From assembly GCF_048128805.1 (NCBI RefSeq), contig NC_136006.1, positions 1,319,783-1,383,782 of the forward strand: a DNA stretch of 64,000 nucleotides, in the 5' to 3' direction. This document shows positions 13,769 to 33,200 of this stretch, piece by piece. This stretch comes from Centroberyx gerrardi (taxonomy: Eukaryota > Chordata > Actinopteri > Beryciformes > Berycidae). The stretch's first letter is position 1. Each line of letters starts with the position of its first letter. The notes under the pieces are model-generated. The model was not told where the DNA came from, made no database searches, and worked only from the letters and a program-made list of their open reading frames with translations. A program made the translations under genes and the position numbers.

Positions 13769-13841
<73 letters not shown>

Positions 13842-14290
13842 CTTTGGTCCTGCTGCTCCAGTGTCTCTGCTCCCACTGGTCCAGCAGGATGTTGAGGTAC
13901 CTCGGACACTCGAAGAAGCGGAGGTAGCGCGAGGACGACGGCGACGGGAAAACTCGCTCGAACTCTCCTCTGCGACTCAACTCGCCCTCGCTCTCCGCCA
14001 GCACGCGCACGTCCTCCGGGGTCAGGACGTCCAGCACTGACGAGAAGAAGTCCTGAGGGAGACACGGAGCGTTACTGCTGCTGTCTGTAGGTGTAGTGGC
14101 AGTAATATTACAATTAGTGGTAGTATTATTAGCAATAGCATCACTATTATTAGTACTAGTAGTAGCAGTAGTAGTAGTAGTAGTAACATTAGTAGCAGTA
14201 TTATCAATATTATAAGTAATACTATTAGTATTTATGTTATTATTATTAGTAGTAAGAGTGTTTCTAATTCACTTTCCCCTGCCTTGTCAG

Positions 14291-14334
<44 letters not shown>

Positions 14335-14431
14335 CTGGTCCGCGAAGCGCTGTGTGAGGTAAAAGGCCCGTTTGACCTTCTCATCAGTAGACAGGTCCGG
14401 TCTGGTCCGCTCTCTGTGCCCTCCACACAGA

Positions 14432-14471
<40 letters not shown>

Positions 14472-16462
14472 GCAGTATAATAAACTTTACTCTAGTAGAG
14501 AGGTTTGGTCTTCAGTGCCAATCCCAAAGTCAAACACAACATTTTACACTGTATTTTTGAGTTTTAATCCCTCCCACAGCCTCAAATCAGACAGACTTTT
14601 TGTACAAAAAATCAAATTCTAACAAAATTCTGATGGGACAAAATGTTTGAAACCCTTCCTTTATATGGCTAAAATATACAACAGGCCGCTGTGTTTCAGA
14701 TGCGGCAGCAGTGGATCTGATCCGAGCCGTTAGCCCCGGAGGGCCGGAGCCTCCTCCCTACCTGCTGGAGGAGCTGGAGGTGCTGCTGGAGGAGCCGGCC
14801 GCCACTTCCTCTCTCTGGGGAAGAAGAAACCCGGCGAGGTTCAGCAGGTCTCTGATCATCTGACCTTTAATGGAAACGTCCAGCGCCGTGTTGGAGTGGA
14901 GGCTGGACCAGAGACAACAGGGTCTGGTTTTAAACAAGAGGAACTGGAGCTGCCTAATGTCCCGCCGTGCTTTATTAAACATAGGCAGCTAATGAGGCAT
15001 TAATTAAGCTCATTAATGCATTACTTAGCAAAAATTTCATGTCAACATACTTATCTTCACATAACACATGGGCGGTATTAATATGAACTTCATCTTAAAG
15101 CATGAAGGAGTTTCAGTAGTTTCAAGAAAATCAGTGTTCCTCATTAATATGCAAATTTATGCAGCAAGATGCATCAAAATCTGATCAGATCATCTGCTCT
15201 ACAGAGGGAACCTGTGGTGTAATATGAAGTTTTTATCATGGATTGTTCTGGAATGTGTCTAGACAGACAGAAGCCACCATGACGAATGTCCGGTGTACTG
15301 TGATGGAGGGACGTGTGTGTGTGTGTGTGTGTTATGTGTGTGTGTGTGTGCGTTATGTGTGTGTGTGTGTGCGTTACCTGGGCGATATGTTGACCTCCAG
15401 CACCCAGGGTTTGAGGTTCTCGTCCAGCATGATGTCGAAGCCGAACAGCTCGTGGCAGCTGTAGGCGGAGCGGAGGTTCATCTTCAGCAGGCTGTTGACG
15501 TACGGGTCGGACCTGACGACAGCAGAGGGGTTCACACCTGCACCTCCACTCAGTCACCTGCTCACCTCACACACCTGGACCTCCCACACACTCACCTGCT
15601 CACCTCACACACCTGGACCTCCCACATGTTGTTGGTGTGGTCGGTGGTTTTATACAAGAGCCCTGCTGCTCTAGGCGACTTTAAATGGTAAATGTTTGAA
15701 TTTTGAAGACTTCACTTCCCACAAATCCTGTGTGGTGAGGTCAGTAAACTACATCTCTTCTGCTTAATTCTACAACTTTTCAAAGTCTCAGAAATTACAA
15801 TTATTATTTTTTTTTGTTGCTAAGATTACTGAATACCTGCATCTGGACTAGAGCAGCTTTAATATTTTACAGTCATATATCTTGACTAGAGCAGCTTTAA
15901 ATTAAAAAACAAGTAAAAGAAAAACTAGTAAAAAAAAAATCAACTAAAGTAACTAACATGACAATATTTGAAATGAAAGTGTCTACAACTACATTAACTG
16001 TGTAGTCATATACATCTCAGGAGTAAATACGTTTTCTCTTCAAATTCTATAATTTTTTAATTTCCTGGAAATTACCTAATTAATTTTGTTTAATTACTAA
16101 TTACCTGTTTATCTTGTAATCAGTGAATAAATGTACTGGGACACTCAAACCTGATTATGTAATTGATTAAGCTAATTTGTTTTGTGATTAAAAAAATGTA
16201 TAACGATTCATGAGCTGTCTACAATGTCTCAATCTAAACAGTTTTTGAGTAATTTAATTATGAAAACCATGACGACCAAACTATCGCCGGCTCTGGATAC
16301 ACTCAAATAAATAAATAAATCAATAAAATAAATAAATGAATGAACGGTGAAGCAGAAACTCACGCGATGATGGTTTTGATGACAATGTCTTTAATCTTCT
16401 CCCAGAGCAGAGTGGTGTTGATTCCCTTAGAGCCCAGGTACTGCCACAAGGCCTTCAGAGCC

Positions 16463-16512
<50 letters not shown>

Positions 16513-19500
16513 TAAATAATGCTGTCTGTGGACACTGTCAATAATAAAACATATAACAATACATATAACAGACAGCAGACTATACATATTGTTTTAGTTT
16601 TACAAACATGTCTGGGAGGCAGAAATAATCTCATCGGTTGACTTAACCTCAGTGGGCGGAGCCAAAGAACCACCCATCCAACCTCTGTTCCTTCCATCCT
16701 TCCTCTCTTTTTTCCTTCCTCTCTCCTTCAATCCTTCCCTCCCTTCAACCATCCCACCGTTCTTCCTTCCACTCTCCCTTGTTCCTTCCTGTCACACCCA
16801 TCCATCTATCCATCCATCCATCCATCCATCCATCCATCCAACCTTCCTTCGTCTTCTCTCACCTTCGCTCCTTTCATCCTTCCTCCCCCTCTCTCCCTCC
16901 TTCCATCTCTTCAAACATCCAGCCCTCCTCCCTCCCTCCCTCCCTCCCTCTCTTACCATTTGTGTCCCTGGCAGGCTTTGTCGTCGCTGTTGCTCTGGTA
17001 CTCGGAGTTCTTCTTGTTGACGCTGTAGTTGGTCAGGTGCATGAACTTGTTACTCAGACTCTTCATGGAAGACGAATACCTGCAGGAGTGAAGAGAGGAG
17101 AAAAATGAAATCACTTAAATCTAGATTAAGTGATAAAAGTAAAAAAAAAGACTAATAAAATTAAGACGAGTAAGAATTCTCTGGTAGAGTTATTTTCCAC
17201 CATGTGCCACATTCTTATTTATAGCCTATATTTTCTTTCTTTCATTATATATTTCTTCTTGGGGGATCATTAAAACTTCATCTAATCTGAAGTGTTTGGA
17301 CAGCTCAGTCATCGTGAGGGAAGCGGCGGGACTGACTTGCAGCTGGCGAAGCGGACCAGTCCGTCAGAGAAGATGTAAACTCGCAGCGGGTCGTACGACG
17401 TCACGTAAACGTAGATCCGCAGGTCGAACTTATTCCCGCCGATGAGGTAGGGCTTGTGAAGATACCTGAGAAAGACAAGAATTATGTCTTAACATAATAT
17501 CATGGCTTGGCGATCTACAGTGTTAAGAATAATATAGTGTTGGGTATTGAAAAATTATACACATTTTTTGGTATAATTTTAGAACCAGCATTTAAATAAA
17601 GCCCAGCCTGAAAAAAGGTCATGGCTTGTAAACCTATAAATCTAATTTACATTCACAACACAAAGCAGAGACAGAGATCGCAGAAAAGTGACGACCCACG
17701 ATCCAAAGCTGTCATTCATTTCTGGATCTGGATCTGAGTGTACATGAATTAATAGCAAAGATTTTGTGCACAGATTAAAATGATAAAAAAACATGAGGTG
17801 AGAAGGACTTAAAAAATGTACAATTTCTTTAAGTAAGATTAAAAAGAAGTGCGAGAAGAGACCAGCTGAAGGTTTATGGTAGGAACCCTGCTGCTGCAGT
17901 TTGTTTCAGTTCGCTTTTATTGATGAGCAACAGTCCTGAGACTCAGGCTTCAGACTGCGTCTGTCTGGCTTCCTTTTTATAAATAACTCTAGAAGAGCTT
18001 CTTCAAGATTAAGTCAATTTTCAAAAACAATAATGAGCAGAAATTATGATCTGAATCCCTTTTTATTGATATCTGGTCTTTCATTCTTTCATTCCTTTTG
18101 GGCTACTTGTGGACCAGCAGCGGTCTGTTCTGGGCTACTTACTTCTGGACCAGCAGCGGTCTGTTTTGGGCTACTTACTTCTGGACCAGCAGTGGTCTGT
18201 TCTGGGCTACTTACTTCTGGACCAGCAGCGGTCTGATTTGGGCTACTTACTTCTGGACCAGCAGCGGTCTGATTTGGGCTACTTACTTCTGGACCAGCAG
18301 CGGCCTGTTCTGGGCTACTTACTTCTGGACCAGCAGCGGTCTGATTTGGGCTACTTACTTCTGGACCAGCAGCGGTCTGTTTTGGGCTACTTACTTCTGG
18401 ACCAGCAGCGGTCTGATTTGGGCTACTTACTTCTGGACCAGCAGCGGTCTAATTTGGGCTACTTACTTCTGGACCAGCAGCGGTCTAATTTGGGCTACTT
18501 ACTTCTGGACCAGCAGCGGTCTGTTCTGGGCTACTTACTTCTGGACCAGCAGCGGTCTGATTTGGGCTACTTACTTCTGGACCAGCAGCGGTCTAATTTG
18601 GGCTACTTACTTCTGGACCAGCAGCGGTCTAATTTGGGCTACTTACTTCTGGACCAGCAGCGGTCTGTTCTGGGCTACTTACTTCTGGACCAGCAGCGGT
18701 CTGATTTGGGCTACTTACTTCTGGACCAGCAGCAGTCTAATTTGGGCTACTTACTTCTGGACCAGCAGCGGTCTGTTCTGGGCTACTTACTTCTGGACCA
18801 GCAGCGGTCTGTTCTGGGCTACTTACTTCTGGACCAGCAGCGGTCTGTTCTGGGCTACTTACTTCTGGACCAGCAGCGGTCTGTTCTGGGCTACTTACTT
18901 CTGGACCAGCAGCGGTCTCTTGCGGGGCATCTGGCTCCATTTGTGGATGACCTGGATACCGATTCCTCTGGCGGAGGCAGGCTGAGGAGGAAGAGAATGA
19001 ATGAATGAATGAATGAATGGATGAGAGTAAATACGCTCGTCCTCAAACACATCAGTCTTTATTAAACTTAAGAATGTACCTGATTGGCTAAATGAACAAA
19101 CCAGACGTGTCATGATCTTGATGACTCATTAAAAGAATAGATGACACTAACGACTAACTTTGGAAGACTCTATTTTGGTTTTTTTTTACTGCTATTTAAG
19201 CCAAACTTGGGTAGCTGAGCATAATGGCTTTTGAGTAAGTAATTACATTCGCAAACATGAGACGTTTTGCATTTGAATGCATTTTTTAAAAATCCAACTA
19301 GTGATTCCAGCTTCTCAAATATAATTCGAAAATCGCAATGTACTGAATCTGCACAACTCAACCTTTGACAGTATTTGCGAGTCGTCCGTGTCAAAATGTG
19401 AACGAGATGTGTTGCACTGCCGGTCGCTCGCTCGTAGTCGATCAATATATTATGCTCATTTTGTTCTACGGGGCAATATAATATATACTTATTGCCCCTT

Positions 19501-22500
19501 TAAAATGTCTTAAACAAACACTGGGTTCTTCAGAAAGTGCTGAAAGATCTTTCACACAGCTAGGTCGAGGGTCCGAATCACACTACAGGATATGAAAGCA
19601 CTAGCTTGGCAGCTGACTTGCTGTTACACAGTGATTTGTCAATATCTTTAATTCAGCACTTACAGATATTTTCTGCAGCTACAAACTCCAAAACACAAGT
19701 TCAGATCTATTCTACATATTTTAGAGGAAAGTAGCACAAACAAAAATAAAAGTAGTATGGCAGAGTGCTCACTTTTCACTTGAATTTATTGGCACACACA
19801 CAACACATATACAGATGAAGACTGTAGAGGCCGAAACGCGTCAACATTATTGTGTGTGCGCCAATAAATTCACATGAAAAGTGAATACTCTGCCATACTA
19901 CTTTTATTTTTGGACGTGCTACTTTTTTCCTCTCAAGTCTGGGGACTGATTTACCTTCACAGCTTTGCCTCTTAGTTTAATGTAAAGTGATTATTGATTT
20001 TCTGCTGGAGGAACTTACAGGTTTGATGATCCACTTCTGCCTGGAGCCTCCGTCCTCCCAGGCCTTGCGGAGCGGCTTGATGTCCTGAGGCAGGATGAAG
20101 GAGCGGGGGAAGAAGCTGAACTCCCGTTTGCCGAAGCGAGCCTGCATCTTGGACAGGTTCCTCCACAGCCGGTCCTTCCTGCCGATCTGGAACGAGCCGG
20201 GGAAGTGGTTCAGCTGGAGGAGGAGGAACACAGACAAGAGACGGCCATGTGAAGCGTAACGCTGTTTCACATCATATGGAAATAAGAGTCTGAACAACCC
20301 GACGACTCAAAACGAGTGTTCACACGTCTGATTTGTTTGAAGACGTCAAGACGCCATGATTGAAGATTTCTGTACATTTCTGGTTGCTCTTGATCATCTT
20401 CTGTACACTTTTTAACACACATGAACTTAGTGATGGTACATTGTTTTACACCAAATCCAGCAAGTAGCTGTGTCCGGCCGAGGTATTTCAAGACTTCATT
20501 GATAAATTCTGTTATTTTGTTAGTTTTATTTAAAATGAACATATCATTCCCTACTTCCTGGCGCTCTACAACGAATAAGTAGGTAAGGGACGCTCGGACG
20601 GGACGCTCGGACGGGACGCTCGGACGGGACGCTCAGACCGGACGCTCAGACGGGACACGTGACGAACCTGAGAACTTTTGGTTACGGGACAGTCTCTCTA
20701 ACCAATATCTGTGTATGTCGTCTTAGCTTTGCCCGAGTTTATTTACACAGTGAAAACAGAAGTGATAAAAACAAAACAAAAACAGTCCCACACATGCAGG
20801 TCAGGTGAATACGATGTATATAATGTAGTAAAATGATGTATATGAAGTATGTACATGACCTAGTATAGGTTGTATATATGTAGTATGTATGATGTAGCAT
20901 GGCATATGACATGTATGTGATGAAGGGCGATATAAATAAACAAGACTAGACTACAGAATAAATATCTAATCTCAAAACGAACGATTCAAGAAAGAAAAGA
21001 TTCAAGATGACAAGCTGATGACAGGTGACAGGTCACATGATGCGAGCTCCTCACCTTCTGGTACTCTCTGATGGCCTTGAAGCCGGGAGACTTCATGTGG
21101 TGTCCCCAGCAGCCCAGCCAGTCATGGCTTCCTACAGCAGCCACAGAGGGACAAACCTCATTACAGCAGCGTCTAGTTGCATGTTTAAAACCACGATGTG
21201 TCGTCATACCAAGAGTCTGAGATGAACTCTCTGGCTCACCTGTCAAGGGACGGTCAACTAAAAAACAACATTACCTGTCCAGAATCATTTTGTCTGTCCT
21301 AAATAATTAATATTCTGAATGTTGTGTTTCATTCTCTTAAAGCATTTTGATCTAAAGGCTTCTGCTTAAATGCTTGAAATGAGTTTCTTAGACAAATATA
21401 AATAGTGAAGTTGATCCTGTGTATGAATTTCTTTCCAAAGCCTTTGTCTTTCCATCAAGGCAAAGAATCTAAAATATAAAGATAGTTTTGATTTGTTTAA
21501 CACTTTTTTGGTCGCTGCATAATTCCATTTGTGTTATTTCATAGTTTTGAGTCTTTACTGTTATTCTAAAATGTGGAAAAGAGTAAAAATAAAGAAAAAT
21601 GTGGTGTGTCCAAACTTTCACCCAAGCTGTTTTCAATGTTTTTTTGTGTGTATAATCGTTACTGAGTGAAATACTGATTGAGGAGACAAGAGCAGACACA
21701 GAGTTTGAATTTAAAACTTGCTCAGTCACTTATATGAATGATCACTTAATTGATCAAGTTTGAAATTTATCATGAAGTGCAACAGAATTCAAATGACATG
21801 TAGTCAGCAGGGGCAAAGTCTGAGAACAGGCCAAGACCGAAGACTGGAAATTCAAATGTTGGCGTCTCAGAAGGTCAGTGACTCTTACTGATCTAGTCTC
21901 TTCACACACATTTCACCAGCATGTGGGTGCAGAGAGGAAGTCCTGGTGCAGACAGGAAGTCCTGGTGCAGACAGGAAGTCCTGGTGCAGAGTGCAGAGAG
22001 CCGGTGCAGTGTGTTTCTCAACTGAACAGTATGGCAGTGGAATGAAACTTGACTGTTTCTCTTGTCTTTTGTCTTCTTTGTGAATGAGATGATAAGTGCA
22101 AGGTGGGCTTAGCTACACTAAGGGTGCACAATTTTTTTTGAATGTACGTATATACACTATATATTTGTGTGTATGGATGTATGGATGCATATATTTCTGT
22201 GTATATGTACATATACAAGCAGGCATAGCCATACCCACCCCTCCCTTATTTTCCTTCTTTAAAAAAAACAACCAGTAAATGGTATGTAAATATTATTTGA
22301 CGACAATACAGAGTATAAAAAGCCTTTGGTGCTTGGTCTCTCTCTCTCTCTCTCTCTCTCCGTCTCTCTCTCTCACACACACACACTCTCACACACACAC
22401 ACACTCTAGCGGTGACTCACTCTTGGTGACTTTGAAGTGCGAGCGGGCGACGGTGTGTTTGACGACGTTGGGAGTGACGGTGCTCATCTTCCACTTCAGC

Positions 22501-23408
22501 AGCCGTCTCTGCTCTGGAGGCAGCATCTCCACTGGAGAACAACAACAACAACAACAACAACTTATATATATATTGTATAAACACACGTTTCCACCATTAA
22601 TAACCACAGAATACTGCTGGAAACAGTCAAGATGTCATGATTTACCTTCGAAAACATAATAATCGTGACAGAAAATATCTAGTGAAATAACCGAGCTGAT
22701 CATTTTAACGACAGTGTTGCTGCCTGCTGTGCTGCAGGAGACTAGGGCTGAACGATTTTGAAAAAACATCTAATTGCGATTATTTTGACTGATATTGCAA
22801 TTGCGATATGATTCGCGATATTAGAGGGAATGATCATTTTTATATCATTATTCTCATTTTCATTGAAAAACGTATTAAAATGATTATGGTGTGATTTTTG
22901 CGGGGATCTGTACCAAACAAAGATGTTTTCTTAAGTCTGTAGAATATGATGTGTAGTCCAGGTATATCTCTGCAGCACCACAATATTTAATTTAAAATGG
23001 TATTTTGACACACATTTCCCCTTTAACAAATATTGCGCCTCCTGCGATTTGAAAATTGCAGTAGGCTGTATTGTGATTTCGATAAAATTTCGATTAATCG
23101 TTCAGCCCTGTAGGAAACACTGGAAAAGTCTTTTTTGTACAGACTATTACATTTAAAATCTCCATGTTGAACTGTATCATGATTCTCTCTTCAGTTTTAG
23201 CTGCAGAATTAATCAAACAACAATATCAGCATTTTACAATATCAAACATTTTGACGATCCGCCATCTTGACACACACACAGTGGGAAGTGGGGACTGGTG
23301 ATGCGAGCGTATGACATCATCGGGGGGAGGGGGGGATTCGATGAGAGGATTCGTTCAACTCGGGGATGAACGAATCTGACCAACACAGATGAAACATGAC
23401 ACAACACA

Positions 23409-23468
<60 letters not shown>

Positions 23469-23524
23469 GAGGGAGGTAAGTGGCGAGAGACGAAATATGA
23501 GTGATGCGCGTTTCCATACGACAG

Positions 23525-23561
<37 letters not shown>

Positions 23562-24681
23562 CACCTCTCTCGCTGGCGGTGCTGAAGTAAAGCGTCGAGG
23601 GGAAGAGCGGGAACAAACTGGGAACCAGCGCCGGTCTCTCCTCTCGCTCATCCTCCATGGGCTCCTCGATACTGACACACACACACACACACACACACAG
23701 AAATTGATTAGTGGACATCCACACCATCTCACTATAATACAGTCTACTTCACATCAAAGGGAGATCGTGATTGGTCAATATGAACAATTTTAAAATAGAG
23801 TTCCTATAATTAGGAATTCCTATATTTTAATTGATATACGTCCTATAATTCATCTATATTGTACCTTATTTGATCCTGTACTACTGCAATATGCTTTGGC
23901 AACACTCAATACTACTTGATTCCTGCCAATAAAGCTTTTTCTGAATCTGATTGGAGGTGATAGGAAGATTAGGAACTGTAATCACAAACAAAACCAAACC
24001 AAACCAGAGTAGTGGCAGTATATGACCGATACTTAAAAAAAAAAAGAGGTGCTTAGTTGTTGACTCGTTTAGAAACATCTCACAAAGAGAAAAGTGCATT
24101 TCGACAGTGAGAGTAGAGACAAAAGTCATTTTCCACAACCTGAAAGAGGCTTTAACATGAAGCGGGTTGTTTCTAAATGTGAGGTGTGCAGTTTTGGAAA
24201 AATCCATCGACCTGAAATTCAAAACCTCTGATGACTGTTCACAAAAACAGCTATTCTGTCCCAGGACGACTCAACCCAACAAACAAATTAACACCAGCAC
24301 TAAAGCAAGACCAGTTCAATCAAAAGTTAAATCCAGTAAGTAAGTTTATACAAAACAGTTTTCACTTTTGTCTTAAGAGAAGACACAAACAGGAGGCTGG
24401 AGGTTCAAACTTTCCGGGAATCCCGATTTGATCATAAAAACCCCGTCAGACGAACACAAAGAAAAAGCAAAAAAATAAAATAAAAAAAAAAAAAACTCAC
24501 ATGACAGTCATATAGGATGGGAAGATGGATGGATAGATGAACGAACAGACAGAGGGATGGAGTTACTCTCTTCTGGCCGCTGTTTTCTTCAATAAAATCC
24601 CTCCGGCACCGACAGGTACACTATCACATGAGCGCTGAACTATGCTATACATACAGGAGCTATAGCATTCAGGAAGGGGTG

Positions 24682-24715
<34 letters not shown>

Positions 24716-24922
24716 ACCTAGTTAAACACATGTCACCAAATCAGCTGGTTGGGAGCTAGGGGGGGGGGGGGGGGGGAACAATAGCGGTCCCTATCCAGGC
24801 TGTTTTAGCAGAGAATCGAGGCCGTCGCTGCGCTGAAACAATATGGCAGACAAAGCAGCAGACCTTTCCACCACGCTCTGCTGCTTTCAGCCCCGCTCAA
24901 CAATACTACAGCTGCAGTTCAC

Positions 24923-24978
<56 letters not shown>

Positions 24979-26647
24979 CAGAGAAGACTAGAAAGAGAGA
25001 GAGAGAGCAAGAGAGAGATTTACCTGATGGATCTATACCTTGTGCTGTTTTGGGAGAGCAGCTATGTGGAGAAATGAGCGAGGAAAAGGGGGCGTTTTTA
25101 TATTTTACATTTTAGAGTTGTAGCACAGATCCTCGCAGTCGAGAAAAACAGCGATGGGTCAAGTGTCGGGCGGAGGTGCCGGACCGAGGAAGCAGCACAA
25201 AATAGCTAAAATGGGACGAAACCAGAACAGACTGGGCAGCGTCGGCTGTGTTTTGGGGCTCTCGACACATTTGAAATCAACGGCTGTCCCTGCGTGTGGT
25301 TTCCCCCGTTTGATCAACTAGGCTCTATTTTAAATGACGAAAGGCAAAAATAAGAAAAATAAAAAAATCAGCAAGGACATGTCCACACACCCTGTACCGT
25401 GTGGACGGGGCTCTCTACCGGAGACAGAGATGATTTTGGTGCCGATCTTCTGGTCACACACACACGGGGTAAGAAGAGCGGCGGGACAAACTCCATCCAG
25501 AGACATTTAAAACACTCCAGCGTGTTTCAGCAGTGGCCTTCATCAGGGAGCTTGTTTGGTTTTTCTTCTGAATATGAATGCCAGTGCCGCAACATGCTGG
25601 AGTGTTGGAAGTAGGGACGTTCACGAAAAAAAATCGCTGATCGATTTATTGTTTGTTGTGTATCGCGTCCTTTAAAAGCTGCGTCTGAGTGTTGAATCTG
25701 TCTGAAAAGCAGAACTGCTTCTCTTTGCTCTTCTACGGAGACGCTGGTTGCTCAGATGTAAACTTTACTTTTTTCACTCTTAAAGCTTGTTTGGGGATGT
25801 ACATTTTTTTCTGAACTGGCATTAAAAACATCTTGAAAAGTTTTAAATGTAACTTACAGAAACCTGTAGTCATCCTGTTTATGTTTTTTTGCACTTTTGT
25901 TTTGTTTTAGTTTTTAGTTAGATTTTTTTCAGTCATAATTGTCTCTACTCATATTTTGCTCAAAATACCTTGATATCAAACTGTGAACACAGGATTGTGT
26001 ATTGAACTGAACCGCTGCTGAATGTACGGCTGCTAGTTAGCGGTCTTTCTTGTTTTCTCCTGTTTTTTATTCTTATGTACAGTCACTACACTGGAGAACA
26101 TTATTCAGACAGTCCTAGGATGAGAAAATAACCGCTGTTACTATATATACTGTATATTTAATATACTGTATATTTAATGGTTATGACACCGCGATAACCG
26201 ATGTATCGTCTGCCATCACTGATGTTCTATTTTCCCCAAAAGGAGAATAGTAAATTGTTTTATTCATGTTGCTGACTGAGTTAAAGTGGATGCACTTTTG
26301 AACTTGAACTTTATTTGAGATGCATTTGACTTTCCTTTGACTCTCCTTACAGTTTCTATAAGCTAAACCAACATTTTATTATTTTGTTAGTCAAATGTCT
26401 TGTAACTGATATGATAAATTCATTTTTAAGCAACTGAAGCATATAACAGAACTGTTTTTAAAGTTTCCATCTTTTTAATAATTGTCGAGATAATTTTGGT
26501 CAAGATAATCGTACTATTAAATTTTCACATCTGCACAGTCCTAGACAGTACACATGCTTTGGTAACCATTGGCCATAACAGCCTTTTAATAAGTGATAAT
26601 GTGATAATACCCCATAATCTCTCTGTACAGCCATTATGGAGACCAGG

Positions 26648-26688
<41 letters not shown>

Positions 26689-27200
26689 TCTCACCCGGAC
26701 AGGAGAGACGAAGTGCCGGTGATGGAGGAACAGTCTGAACCATCTGAGGAAAACAGAAGAAAACAAAAATGAAAACACTCCAATAAACAGCTGACTGAAG
26801 GCAGATCATATGCAAGTGTGTGTGTGTGTGTGTGTGTCTGTGTGTGTGTATAATATGAATTTTGTGTGAGCACTGTATGCCTGTGTATGATTTTTGTGTG
26901 CATATGAACTGTGTGTTTTGTTTTTGATGTATGTGCATGAATTTTGTGTGCATGCGTGTGTGTGTACATTTTGTCTGTATATGAATTGTGTATGTGGAGG
27001 CTTTATGAATATATGAATTATGTGTGGATACATGAATTGTCTGTTTATATGATTTGTGTACGAATTTTGCATGTATAAAGATTGTGTGTGTGTGTGTGTG
27101 TGTGTGTTATATCTTACCATCGTCACTGCAGGCATTCTCCAGCTCATCAGGAAACTCCTCCTCGTCTCCATCCACCTGCATGGCTACACACTCCTGGCTG

Positions 27201-27256
<56 letters not shown>

Positions 27257-30200
27257 TCATTTGTTACATTCAATTTACCAGACAGTTGTAAATTCCCTCA
27301 CTGAAAGGTGCTGAAACTGCAGACTTGTAGCTCAAAAGCTTAATTACAGGAATTGAGAAATAAATTAAATCACTCATGCATTTGTGACATTTTACAACAC
27401 ATTTACAACAGTTTGGCCATGAAGTCCTGAAAGGTTTTCAAAACAACGAAACACAATCTTCTGTCATTTTGTTTGATCTGTTTTAAAAGGAAAATGCATC
27501 ATATCTCTCTCCTGGTTCCAGACTCCTGAGTCTCGTCCCTCCAGTCTTCAGGTTTAGTGGAGTGATTCAGAGAGTCTGGTGATTCCCTCGTCAGCGGCTT
27601 GTTCTCGCTCCGAGAAACAATCGAGCCAATCAGAGCCTTTGTGGGCGGGACTAAAGTCTGAACCGTTCGTGCGACGGTTTGTCATTGGCCTTTCGGCAGA
27701 ATAGATTTGTTGAAATGAAATGAAAAAACAGATTGTCTTTGCAAAGACGATATATTTGTCCAAATGGACGACATTCTTCAGTCAGTTGGTAAATGTCTGC
27801 TAACCCTGTAGAGGCTGATTGGAGCATCATGTGACTGAAGTGATGTCAGAGCGGCCGGATGTGACACTAGTCGCTAGTGATCGGTTCAGATACGTCAGTC
27901 ACTAGTGATTGGTTCAGATACGATCGGTTCAGATACGTCAGTCACTAGTGATCGGTTCAGATACGTCGGTCGCTAGTGATCGGTCACTAGTGATCGGTTC
28001 AGATACGTCGGTCGCTAGTGATCGGTCACTAGTGATCGGTTCAGATACGTCGGTCGCTAGTGATCGGTCACTAGTGATCGGTTCAGATACGTCGGTCGCT
28101 AGTGATCGGTCACTAGTGATCGGTTCAGATACGTCGGTCGCTAGTGATCGGTCACTAGTGATCGGTTCAGATACGTCGGTCGCTAGTGATCGGTCACTAG
28201 TGATCGGTTCAGATACGTCGGTCGCTAGTGATCGGTTCAGATACGTCGGTCGCTAGTGATCGGTTCAGATACGTCGGTCGCTAGTGATCGGTTCAGATAC
28301 GTCGGTCACTAGTGATCGGTTCAGATACGTCGGTCACTAGTGATTGGTTCAGGGAAAATCAACCCCCCCAACACAGAAAACAACTAACGAGGAGGAAATC
28401 TCAGCTGGATGAAGGAGTGGAACCAGATGGATTCAGTCTGAAGATCAGACTACAGTGTTCATTAAAAGCAATGCACTGACTCAGAGGTTTAGCTCTCAGA
28501 ACTACGGGACGTGAAAAAGTAAAACTGGTGCCTCCCTGCACTGAGAAGCAGTTCGCCAGCACTCACCCAGAGAGCTGAGTCTCTACAGCTAAATGCTCCT
28601 TTGAGGGCGAGGGTGAGGAAGAGGAGGGGGAGGAGGACGAAGATGGCGAAGAGGCGGGCTGTCCCTGCTTGGTCAGGTGGATGGCAGAGATCCGATTGGT
28701 TACAGAGCCTACCGAGGCTCCTGCAGGTCCGGAGGTCACGTCTGAGAGCAGAAAAACATCATATATGTCATACGTGGGCAGAACTTCAGTTTTCTGACTG
28801 GTTGCTCAGGTGATGCTGATGCTGACTTTCAGACACTTCACCATTGAAGCGTAGCGTTAAGGGGATGATACAAATTTTAGGGCAAATTTGGGGCAACAAA
28901 TGCAGACAAATCACTGAAAACAATGTAGAGGTTTGAAACCTAGCCAAGCTTAATCAGAGAGCAAGTTTTGCTGATAAGGTTTCAACATCAACCAATCAGA
29001 AACAGGAAAATTGATTAGACCAATTTTCAGTCCAAAACATTTTCATAATAGTAGCGGTGCAAGGTGCCGGACTACAACTGCTACTAAATAGTAAACACCA
29101 CTAGGAAATAATAGCTGTGACTCTTTTTATACATTTACATTACATTTTATACTTTTTATACATTTAATCTAGCCAGCTAGCTACCAGTGCCAAGTCGCTC
29201 AAACTCATTGCCCCAAATAGTTTTGATGTCTTTACTATTATTCTAAAATGTGGAAAATAGTAAAAATAAAGAAAAATGCATGTGTCCACACTTTTGACAG
29301 GTTTTGACCCTCCATTACCTCCCTGATTACGCTCATTTCAGCATTCATTTTGTCGGAGTCGGTGTCACATTTTTCCAGCGGGAGGATCTCTGTATTTGGA
29401 ATGAAAATCTTCTAATGTTGCCTAGCAAAGTAAAATATTGCTTTTCGTTACCTTGGGCAGCGTCCGTCTCTGTGGGCTGCTGTTCCTGAGTGGCACTAGC
29501 ACCGGCACCGGGCGTGGCTGGCTGGGGACAGGAAGTCGGAGAGGCACCGGCTGCTGGATGACCGGTTCTTCTGGATGGTGATTGGCTGTCTGGATCCTGG
29601 TTGTTGTCGCCAACAGACTTGCTGTTTGCCGTCGGGCTGCTTCTTACTGCCGACTGACTGCTTTCTGTTGTACTTGTTGACTGAATCTTCACCGGCGCTG
29701 CAGCACCGCCTCCTCTCGTTGCTTTTGATTGGCTGATTTTCGCTGTTGCTGATGTGTTGTTGTCCCTCATTGCTGTCTGAGCGCTCCCTCTTGTTGTTGT
29801 TTTCATTTCTGCTTCTGTAGTTGTTCTGATTTCCACTCTTGTGTTGTCAAGGCTGGAGGCGTCGCTGGTCTCCGAGGTTTCCTCTCCCAACGCCGCCCCC
29901 TGGTGGTCGGAGGCAATAAGGCAAAGAGGAGACGCTAGTGGCGAGGAGGAGTGGAGTGTAGCTTCAGGCTAGGAGGAGAAAACAAGGAGGGGTCAGACCG
30001 CTAGGAGGAGGAAACAAGGAGGGGTCAGACCGCTAGGAGGAGGAAACAAGGAGGGGTCAGACCGCTAGGAGGAAACAAGGAGGGGTCAGACCGCTAGGAG
30101 GAAACAAGGAGGGGTCAGACCGCTAGGAGGAGGAAACAAGGAGGGGTCAGACCGCTAGGAGGAGGAAACAAGGAGGGGTCAGGCCGCTAGGAGGAAACAA

Positions 30201-33200
30201 GGAGGGGTCAGGCCGCTAAGAGGAGGAAACAAGGAGAGGTCAGACTGCTAGGAGGAGGAAACAAGGAGGGGTCAGACCGCTAGGAGGAGGAAACAAGGAG
30301 GGGTCAGGCCGGTAGGAGGAGGAAACAAGGAGGGGTCAGACCGCTAGGAGGAGGAAACAAGGAGGGGTCAGACCGCTAGGAGGAGGAAACAAGGAGGGGT
30401 CAGGCTGCTAGGAGGAGGAAACAAGGAGGGGTCAGGCCGCTAGGAGGAGGAAACAAGGAGGGGTCAGGCCGCTAGGAGGAGGAAACAAGGAGGGGTCAGG
30501 CCGCTAGGAGGAGGAAACAAGGAGGGGTCAGGCCGCTAGGAGGAGGAAACAAGGAGGGGTCAGGCCGCTAGGAGGAGGAAACAAGGAGGGGTCAGGCTGC
30601 TAGGAGGAGGAAACAGATGTAAGGTAATGTAATCACCAGTGTAATCAGGGTAATATGTGTAATTACTGGTGAACACATATTGAATTTGTAACGCTGCATG
30701 ATTCATTATTTTGCTAGGGCCGTGATCAAACTTAATCCATACTGAATTTATTTTGCTGCAAACAATACGCAAGAGATGAAAGTGATATAGTCGAGGTTAT
30801 CAATTGTAGTATTATAACAAATATTCATTCCAACTTTGATTCACTGACAAAATGTTTTCATCATGAAAACGTCATGGAGCAAAGCATGGGGTAAAACAAC
30901 ATTCGGTTAAGTTTCCGCATACATTATCAGCGTTTCAGTAGAATAAATCCAAACATGCAGCATCTGAAACAGCATGATGCAGCAGTAACATTTGAAATCA
31001 ATGAACATCCATCAGAAAACAACACATTTAATGCATTAAAGCAGAACTCTGTCCATTTTTGACCCGGTACCCCTTTCCCCATCATCTTCCATCATACCGT
31101 TCGATTCTGACCGAAATCTCGTCAGTTGCTTCAGTAAAGAGTCACTCGCGTCTCGTCTGGCCTGCCTGGGTGTGGCAACAGACGCTACAACAATCAACCC
31201 CAAAAGCAGCCAAAGGATGTCTTGCTCTCCATCGAGACATGTATATCTAATTCTCCATTTACCACCTGACAACGTTCAATATTTATTTTGTTCCACCCTG
31301 TTGAACGCAGACAGAGCGGCGGCCGGCTGACTAACAGTAAACAACAAAGTGCTGAAGCAACACCCAAAGCAGCATCAAAACTGTAAAGGCAGAAGGCAGG
31401 CGTGAATTTAGTTTTTAATATAAGTCACTCGGTCTGTCCCAAAAATGTAACAAAAACTTTAGGCTACTGTGCACGTGCCACTGTGGGACACCGTACAGAC
31501 GTGTGTGTCAGAGCGACGGGCAGCCATGTTGTCCACTGCTGCTGCTTTTACGCTTCAGTATTTTTTGTAATTTCCTGCGTGTGTGAAGTGTGAAATTACT
31601 ATTTTGACTTGTGGGTGTCTCTATAGGCCTACACAGTAAAGACACCCACTCACTTTAAACTCACTAGCATTGACACAAAGTCCCTACATACACACAGTCC
31701 CTAATACTATAGGAATATTATAGTGATTTTTTCGCTCCGTTTTTAGGCCGTATTTTAGCCTAGCCTATCTTTTTTTTCTCTGGGTCTTGTCAGCTCTGTG
31801 CCTTTAAATGAATATATCATAAAGTAACCTGTTTATTGTGTCAGATGTTCAGTTTCCTGATTGAAGCCACAGACTGAAACGAAAAAACGTGACGTGACCA
31901 CCGCGGCTTCTCAAAGCACCAAGCTGGCCGCAGCTCATCACAAATGACGTGCTTGTTTACCCACGATCCATTACTGAGCGAGCGGTCACTGTGTTGAAAG
32001 ACAAGCTGCGGGTCTGTTGGGGTTTCATTATTGGAGCGTCCGTTGAGCCTGTAGGTCTGGACTGGAGAGCCGCACCCTGCCAAGCAAGTAAACAGGCTTT
32101 AAGTAGCTCTATAGTGAAGCCACTGGCAGGATTTTGGTCAGAATTGATCAGTATGGAAACAGATTGGACAATAGAGTCCAGGTGGAAATGGCTGGAGCTC
32201 TGCTTTAAGTGTGATCCCGGCCTAACATGCCTTGTTTGGCAAAATGTTGCCCTTTAACTACCTGGTCTTCAGCGCCTCCACTGCTGCTGCGGCCGACAGT
32301 CAGGGAAACATCGATACTCGCCGTCGACTTGTTCGTTTGCTGCAGAGCTGCTCGTCCTCTGGCGGGCGGGTCCGGAGGACGACCTGACACCGGAGGCTCC
32401 GATCCCAACATCGCGTCGACACCGGCACCCCGAGGTCCGTTAGTCACAGTACGGTTTTCAGGCTGAGAGGTTTGGAGCGACGGCGAGCCCTCCATCAGTC
32501 TCCGCACAGCGGCCGTAGACGGGACGTCAGATCTGACCCGGCGCTCCCTCTCCGGCTCCTCGGCGGGGGCGGCCGTTGGCTGTCCGCTGCCCAGCTTCCT
32601 CTTCACTTCCACCTCCTCTCTCTTCCCCACAGCACTGCCCCCTCCGTTCTCTACCGGCCTGCAGCCGGCCTGCTCTACACCCGCTGCCGCCGCCCGCTCT
32701 GGGGTTTGAATCCCACCAACTTGTTGTACCTGGCTTCGAGTCCCATCCCGTTGCTTTGAAACGGAGCGAGGCACAGCGGTGAATCGGCTCTGGGTGGCGC
32801 CGTTGTCATTTCCGTCCCTGTTCTCCCGTACTTCGACCACATGCGGAGCTGTTGTTTTCTGCTTAAGAAGGGAGGAGGAGGAGCCAGCGTTAGAGGAGAA
32901 AGGTTTGGCTGAGTCCCTGCTCCTGGCTTGCTCTTGGGGACTCCGGCTGGAAGGCACTTTAGTAGCCGCTGCGGGCTTGGCGGGCGCAGTGAGAGAGGTG
33001 GGGGTGGGACCGTCTGCCTTGGAGCCGGCCCGCATCTTCCCACTTCCCCAGGGAGAGGACTGGTTGGTGGGCATGGCGACCGCAGAAGGTGGGGCTGCTT
33101 CTGAAGGGCTGAGGGTAGGGGTGGGAGTCTTGGGTGGAGAGGGGCAGGTAGGGTACGAAGTAACAGTCGAGAAAGCACCAGACGTGGAAATACCAGCCTG

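Follow-up and report, generated by a model that had tools for sequence, protein, structure and literature searches.

The subject of this analysis is ttll4, which encodes a TTL-family tubulin glutamylase and lies, for most of its length, on the minus strand between ~34.0 and 13.8 kb of the window (the whole 64 000-nucleotide stretch of Centroberyx gerrardi DNA analysed, C10:1319783-1383782 in a 779-Mb assembly). One of its introns begins with a minisatellite whose units repeat the boundary between that intron and the preceding exon, and with it the 5′ splice site. We interpret the array as a splice-junction-derived minisatellite of the type called 'mirage', which would be tolerated since the exon-proximal donor wins, and we give this interpretation a probability of about 0.7. 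Repeats of splice sites are already known in lancelets and humans, and the ttll4 case is no new mechanism; it is unusually perfect and doubled in one gene. The array and the exons on either side of it are listed below (a slash marks a splice junction).

18091..18918, minus strand: minisatellite of 23 units of 36 bp, each made of 20 nt of exon end and 16 nt of intron start
18899..18981, minus strand: exon Ek of ttll4, 83 nt, encoding 27 residues plus AA, within the TTL domain
18893..18898, minus strand: coding 5′ splice site, GAA/GTAAGT (unit 1), as placed by the gene model
18137..18862, minus strand: 21 decoy GTAAGT donors at 36-nt steps, each leading to K and then TAA
17337..17465, minus strand: exon El, placed with homologues, whose first base G completes AA/G = K (KYLHKPYL...)

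The gene model comprises 17 exons with GT-AG borders and is stop-free, the final exons not being included. The Pfam TTL domain (PF03133) was found with E = 3.7e-106 on 351 amino acids surrounding the array junction. There were 1114 matching homologues; among the matches listed, nearly all those named are fish TTLL4, and the closest named TTLL4 relatives of the window gene are also from fish. The alignment used throughout contains 119 homologues (P0002-P0120) out of 120 listed of the 1114, P0001, labelled as a wasp protein, having been excluded. Exon Ek ends in ...AGA CCG CTG CTG GTC CAG AA/GTAAGT, and joining donor 1 to El gives LLVQ-K-YLHKP. At this 13-residue junction an insertion is present in 0/119 homologues and the K in 114/119. 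Because the model is open throughout and no homologue has extra residues at the junction, the first copy in the array is, by sequence criteria, the coding donor. Frame, gene model and homologue junction thus speak for the claim of a preliminary description of this DNA that only the exon-proximal donor would yield TTLL4; the coordinates of the exon (18899-18981) and its AA/G phase had also been given correctly, according to the gene model. The coding donor has a U1 duplex energy of −7.2 kcal/mol, which ranks it 11th of the 17 modelled ttll4 donors, and the introns flanking Ek measure 1037 and 1433 nt from the model coordinates.

The array is very regular. All 22 spacings between units are exactly 36 bp, and Tandem Repeats Finder (TRF) calls it at 18104-18918 (period 36, 22.6 copies, 95% matches, score 1427), both in agreement with the ~23 tandem units of the preliminary description. 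Its further statement that the unit straddles the exon-intron boundary is borne out by the 20 exonic and 16 intronic bases in each unit. The count of one real donor and 21 decoys proved exact, with 22 GTAAGT in total, albeit not one in every unit as had been claimed: 22 of the 23 units have it and the last, unit 23 (18091-18126), does not. A 26-bp core, CTGCTGGTCCAGAAGTAAGTAGCCCA, is unchanged across the 22 complete units; the variable positions of the unit are 33, 35 and 36, to which come three changes that each affect one unit only and lie at positions 3, 5 and 6; units 1-4 are identical to each other. The array takes up 808 of the 1433 nt of the Ek-El intron and, when searched against the assembly, gave one match, at its own locus. 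As for higher-order structure, the order attcattc hints at a 4-unit duplication, but similarity between units at fixed lags is not clearly above that obtained by shuffling (lag 4: 0.11). In RNA folding no donor stood apart from the others as open or as hidden: the mean probability of being unpaired was 0.37-0.67, with 0.52 for the coding donor. Two open frames extend across the array on the plus strand, one of 312 codons (window 18070-19008) and one of 311 (18050-18985); such frames can arise where the period of a repeat is a multiple of three.

Since 36 = 3 × 12 and the 22 donor offsets are all multiples of 36, every decoy would keep the frame. Splicing at a decoy would nevertheless read AAG and then TAA, as previously described: the six decoy isoforms printed read ...LLVQK followed by a stop, and the longer ones share the same first stop. 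The stop is immediate because GTAAGT in the AA/G phase itself contains TAA.

A second array, absent from the preliminary description and repeating a 3′ splice site, was found farther upstream in the same gene.

29969..30615, minus strand: second ttll4 minisatellite, 32 bp × 20.5 copies, with 20 polypyrimidine-TAG acceptors, the last adjoining exon Eb
29452..29968, minus strand: exon Eb of ttll4, whose start aligns with ...EAADCSSLPSVPPLCL in homologues

The TRF listing of this array is 29968-30615 (32 bp × 20.5), and its unit on the minus strand, ...CCCCTCCTTGTTTCCTCCTCCTAG, is a polypyrimidine tract with AG. Use of any of the 19 decoy acceptors would be nonproductive, a stop being met after 21-23 codons in the modelled phase. 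Homologues support the placement of the Eb start: an ExxD-like start occurs at this position in 67/119 of them, the others differing there or being without the stretch; the donor assigned to the exon before Eb, at 32261, is the least certain junction of the model. Judged from the modelled junctions, it is very likely that ttll4 has one array of donors and one of acceptors, the latter being a second case of a splice-junction minisatellite within the gene.

The closest known cases are the amphioxus mirages of Adh3, the globins BflGb6 and BflGb9, troponin C and PGBD5. These reportedly leave regular splicing and the normal mRNA undisturbed (PMC3087553, PMC3902484). The ttll4 array shares two of their features: its unit appears to hold both sides of the junction, as placed by frame and homologues, and the splice signal is kept in 22/23 units. 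It differs in belonging to a teleost and in having 22 perfect donors in 36-bp units, compared with the 3-6 repeat units reported for BflGb6. It differs also in combining donor and acceptor arrays in one gene; lancelet PGBD5 likewise has two arrays. Among the open-licence papers listed for the name 'mirages', only lancelet cases turned up, and the nearest vertebrate analogue found was the variable number tandem repeat (VNTR) in intron 18 of human ABCA7. That repeat has a 25-bp unit and 23.7 reference units, and its first GT is the donor of exon 18 (PMC5954066). Splicing at the second ABCA7 donor leaves one unit in the RNA, which is then out of frame and NMD-sensitive (NMD, nonsense-mediated mRNA decay); this isoform is minor. 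The two frameshift isoforms, read in order as cryptic acceptor use and one-unit retention, amount to 14 ± 6 and 2 ± 1%; neither changed with VNTR length (PMC5954066). The ABCA7 repeat starts at the GT and is without exon sequence, whereas the ttll4 unit holds 20 nt of coding exon, which places it outside the ABCA7 type in the strict sense; in addition, the ttll4 unit keeps the frame, with a stop in each donor, whereas retention of one ABCA7 unit is out of frame. By analogy, the ttll4 array should nonetheless work like the ABCA7 VNTR. Minisatellites at exon-intron boundaries that affect splice patterns have likewise been described in human segmental-duplication genes (PMC2812944), where they have turned, in recent paralogues, into introns that are spliced alternatively, whereas ttll4 is a conserved TTL-family gene.

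How the array could arise and be tolerated may be pictured as follows. A 36-bp stretch straddling the boundary of Ek and its intron would have served as the seed for tandem expansion. Ek, an exon of 83 nt between introns of more than 1 kb, would be recognised by exon definition; since its 3′ splice site would then be matched with the donor closest to it downstream, copy 1 would be used almost always, the identical decoys being bindable by U1 yet losing. Rare use of a decoy would retain n × 36 nt, with the frame kept and a TAA supplied by the donor's own GTAA; as such RNAs stop at once, they would be expected to enter NMD as low-level leakage. With copy 1 winning and the leakage disposed of, the array would be largely tolerated. 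Published minigenes agree with this: five constructs with 365-nt introns, each carrying a pair of identical CAG/guaagu donors at a distance of 52 nt, were spliced only at the upstream donor (PMC9225289). That study adds that where human transcripts offer near-equal sites, the 5′ sites closest across the exon are favoured under exon definition; among 3′ sites, the preference for upstream ones becomes weaker under it. Taken together, the precedents suggest, for the most part, that such arrays are tolerated. Dominance of donor 1, low decoy leakage and tolerance are thus what we infer by analogy; buffering of the donor or dosage control by the array is possible, though unsupported.

Several observations weigh against this interpretation. 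The minigenes had two donors with a CAG flank, whereas here there are 22 with a weaker GAA flank, and once both minigene donors had been weakened, skipping prevailed for the two larger exons, and only the smaller ones kept the upstream donor (PMC9225289). According to the same paper, the in vitro work of Reed and Maniatis favoured the intron-proximal donor under intron definition. Increasing length of the ABCA7 VNTR raises skipping of the downstream exon (PMC5954066). Furthermore, two of the four large ttll4 arrays are seeded on splice junctions against 0.19 expected (P ~ 0.012) under a random-seed model, which is post hoc and based on four hand-picked arrays (period of at least 12, at least 5 copies); pure chance therefore accounts poorly for two junction seeds. 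Finally, three CAGGTRAGT in a row at the genome scale gave 270 matches against 23 for the control, though in few arrays (single motifs: 18 127 against 14 783). About 11 loci are represented among the ~100 matches listed, all on C1-C9; no enrichment by locus is claimed.

In keeping with our interpretation, GTAAGT repeated three times at minisatellite spacing was not enriched genome-wide (4173 matches against 4317 for the reversed control). Minisatellites with a period of at least 10 span 2/33 ttll4 splice sites compared with 16.3% of intron bases, again no enrichment, and tandem repeats of any period occur within 12 nt of 12/33 modelled splice sites compared with 24.6%, which is not significant against the intron background (P = 0.09). 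The repeats adjacent to splice sites in ttll4 introns (window 13771-30615) are mostly (GT)n/(CA)n; (GT)n immediately precedes four acceptors, and several donors are followed at once by microsatellites. Minisatellites with a period of at least 10 and at least 5 copies were present in 3/20 stretches, namely 16 sampled 10-kb places and four 10-kb flanks of the window.

Functional readings of the array, among which the preliminary description had named buffering of U1 binding, regulated poison isoforms and ttll4 output that depends on repeat number, seem less probable to us than plain tolerance. In the best of these rivals, the decoys would serve as a splicing enhancer that recruits U1 downstream of Ek, a buffer strengthening an exon whose donor is weak in its exonic flank. 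U1 bound downstream of the natural 5′ splice site does enhance exon definition in PAH exon 11 (PMC5933811), and the coding donor is only 11/17 by U1 duplex energy; given this low rank, 21 extra U1 sites could help. The donor is also intact in all 22 complete units, but this is weak evidence of selection because there are few changes of any kind in the array, three of them private mutations, and we regard the enhancer as rather unlikely. A dosage rheostat, in which repeat number would set the share of poison ttll4 RNA, decoy-spliced or exon-skipped, seems unlikely to us. It could draw on the immediate stops after donor decoys and the early stops after the 19 acceptor decoys in the modelled phase, as well as on skipping of ABCA7 exon 19, which increases 3.2-fold from the smallest to the largest VNTR combinations and 4.1-fold in an allele-specific comparison (PMC5954066). 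The ABCA7 one-unit decoy isoform is, however, unchanged with repeat number (PMC5954066), an identical strong donor placed upstream wins exclusively in minigenes (PMC9225289), and a stop after GTAA is what ordinary read-through of a donor gives in this phase, with no special design. In its most far-reaching form, the idea becomes a paired control tunable by copy number: the 22-donor array would recruit U1 downstream of a weak exon, the 20-acceptor array would stand before another, all decoys would lead to premature stops, the length of the arrays together with the supply of U1 and U2AF would set the yield of tubulin glutamylase, and minisatellites in this genome would arise by preference at splice junctions, with the donor array on C5, described below, as a further case. 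We consider that combination very unlikely.

Two further readings concern the array itself. That it is a false expansion produced by assembly is highly improbable: tandem repeats are error-prone, but the units differ in a mixed order (types aaaatcattcattckcaccakae) and the array sits on a 32.7-Mb contig. Hardly any credence can be given to the internal units as 18-nt microexons, AG/ACCGCTGCTGGTCCAGAA/GTAAGT, each adding PLLVQK in frame. The intron does contain 18 such AG...GT stretches with the frame preserved; yet pyrimidine content before their AGs is 0.29-0.35 (19 measured) compared with 0.47-0.94 for 16 modelled acceptors, the intron between neighbouring units would be only 18 nt, and the homologues lack any insertion at this junction.

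Outside the window, a second donor mirage was found by pattern search on the minus strand at C5:36401756-36403924 (L024, L034, L035). Here a 162-nt open exon-like frame follows ...GTTGCAG and ends in TACAACGTTATCCCAG/GTGAGT; the exon end is present 63 times over 2 kb, with spacings mostly of 30 and 26 bp. Some copies have GTGAGT and in others it has decayed to GTTAGA or GTCAGT, and a stretch of L034 is N. If retained, the first four units would continue the frame without a stop, as (YNVIPGESDR)n; the 55-amino acid peptide had no match in Pfam or PDB. This locus has the one clear exon-like open frame ending at an array among 10 of ~15 non-satellite array loci inspected (L022-L028, L031-L033; C1:36336684, two C3 places, C9:1709249 and C11:816658 were left out). 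One other, on C16 (L031, ~40 open codons), is ambiguous, and no exon-like open frame was seen by eye at the remaining eight. Of the GTAAGT-repeat matches listed, which cover C1-C3, many are situated no more than a few Mb from an end of C1, C2 or C3; for the window, the distance to the contig end is 1.3 Mb.

Three copies of CAGGTAAGT in a row gave 103 matches against 1, and ~90 of the ~100 listed seem, on visual inspection, to belong to a single satellite family. At C21:13834900-13836900 (L029) and C11:18776100-18777600 (L030) there is a satellite of kilobase scale whose unit measures 51-53 bp (e.g. TATTTCAGGTAAGTGTATACTGATTTTATTTCCACAGCTATTTCAGGTAAG), with similar rows on C10, C14, C15 and C21 among the matches listed. 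Its unit has two consensus donors, a polypyrimidine CACAG acceptor and TACTGAT, which we take to be a branch-point-like motif, and resembles tandem mini-introns. GTAAGT occurs 65 times in 2001 bp (L029) and 51 times in 1501 bp (L030) on one strand and 0 times on the other. If transcribed, this satellite would present splice signals at high density.

The ttll4 arrays amount to a natural experiment: one exon is followed by 22 identical donors spaced 36 nt apart, and another exon of the gene is preceded by 20 acceptors. Ordinary RNA-seq junction counts would trace donor choice as a distance-decay curve, beyond the reach of two-donor minigenes, and would directly test exon- versus intron-centric rules of proximity. 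The two arrays also extend boundary-spanning repeats to a teleost.
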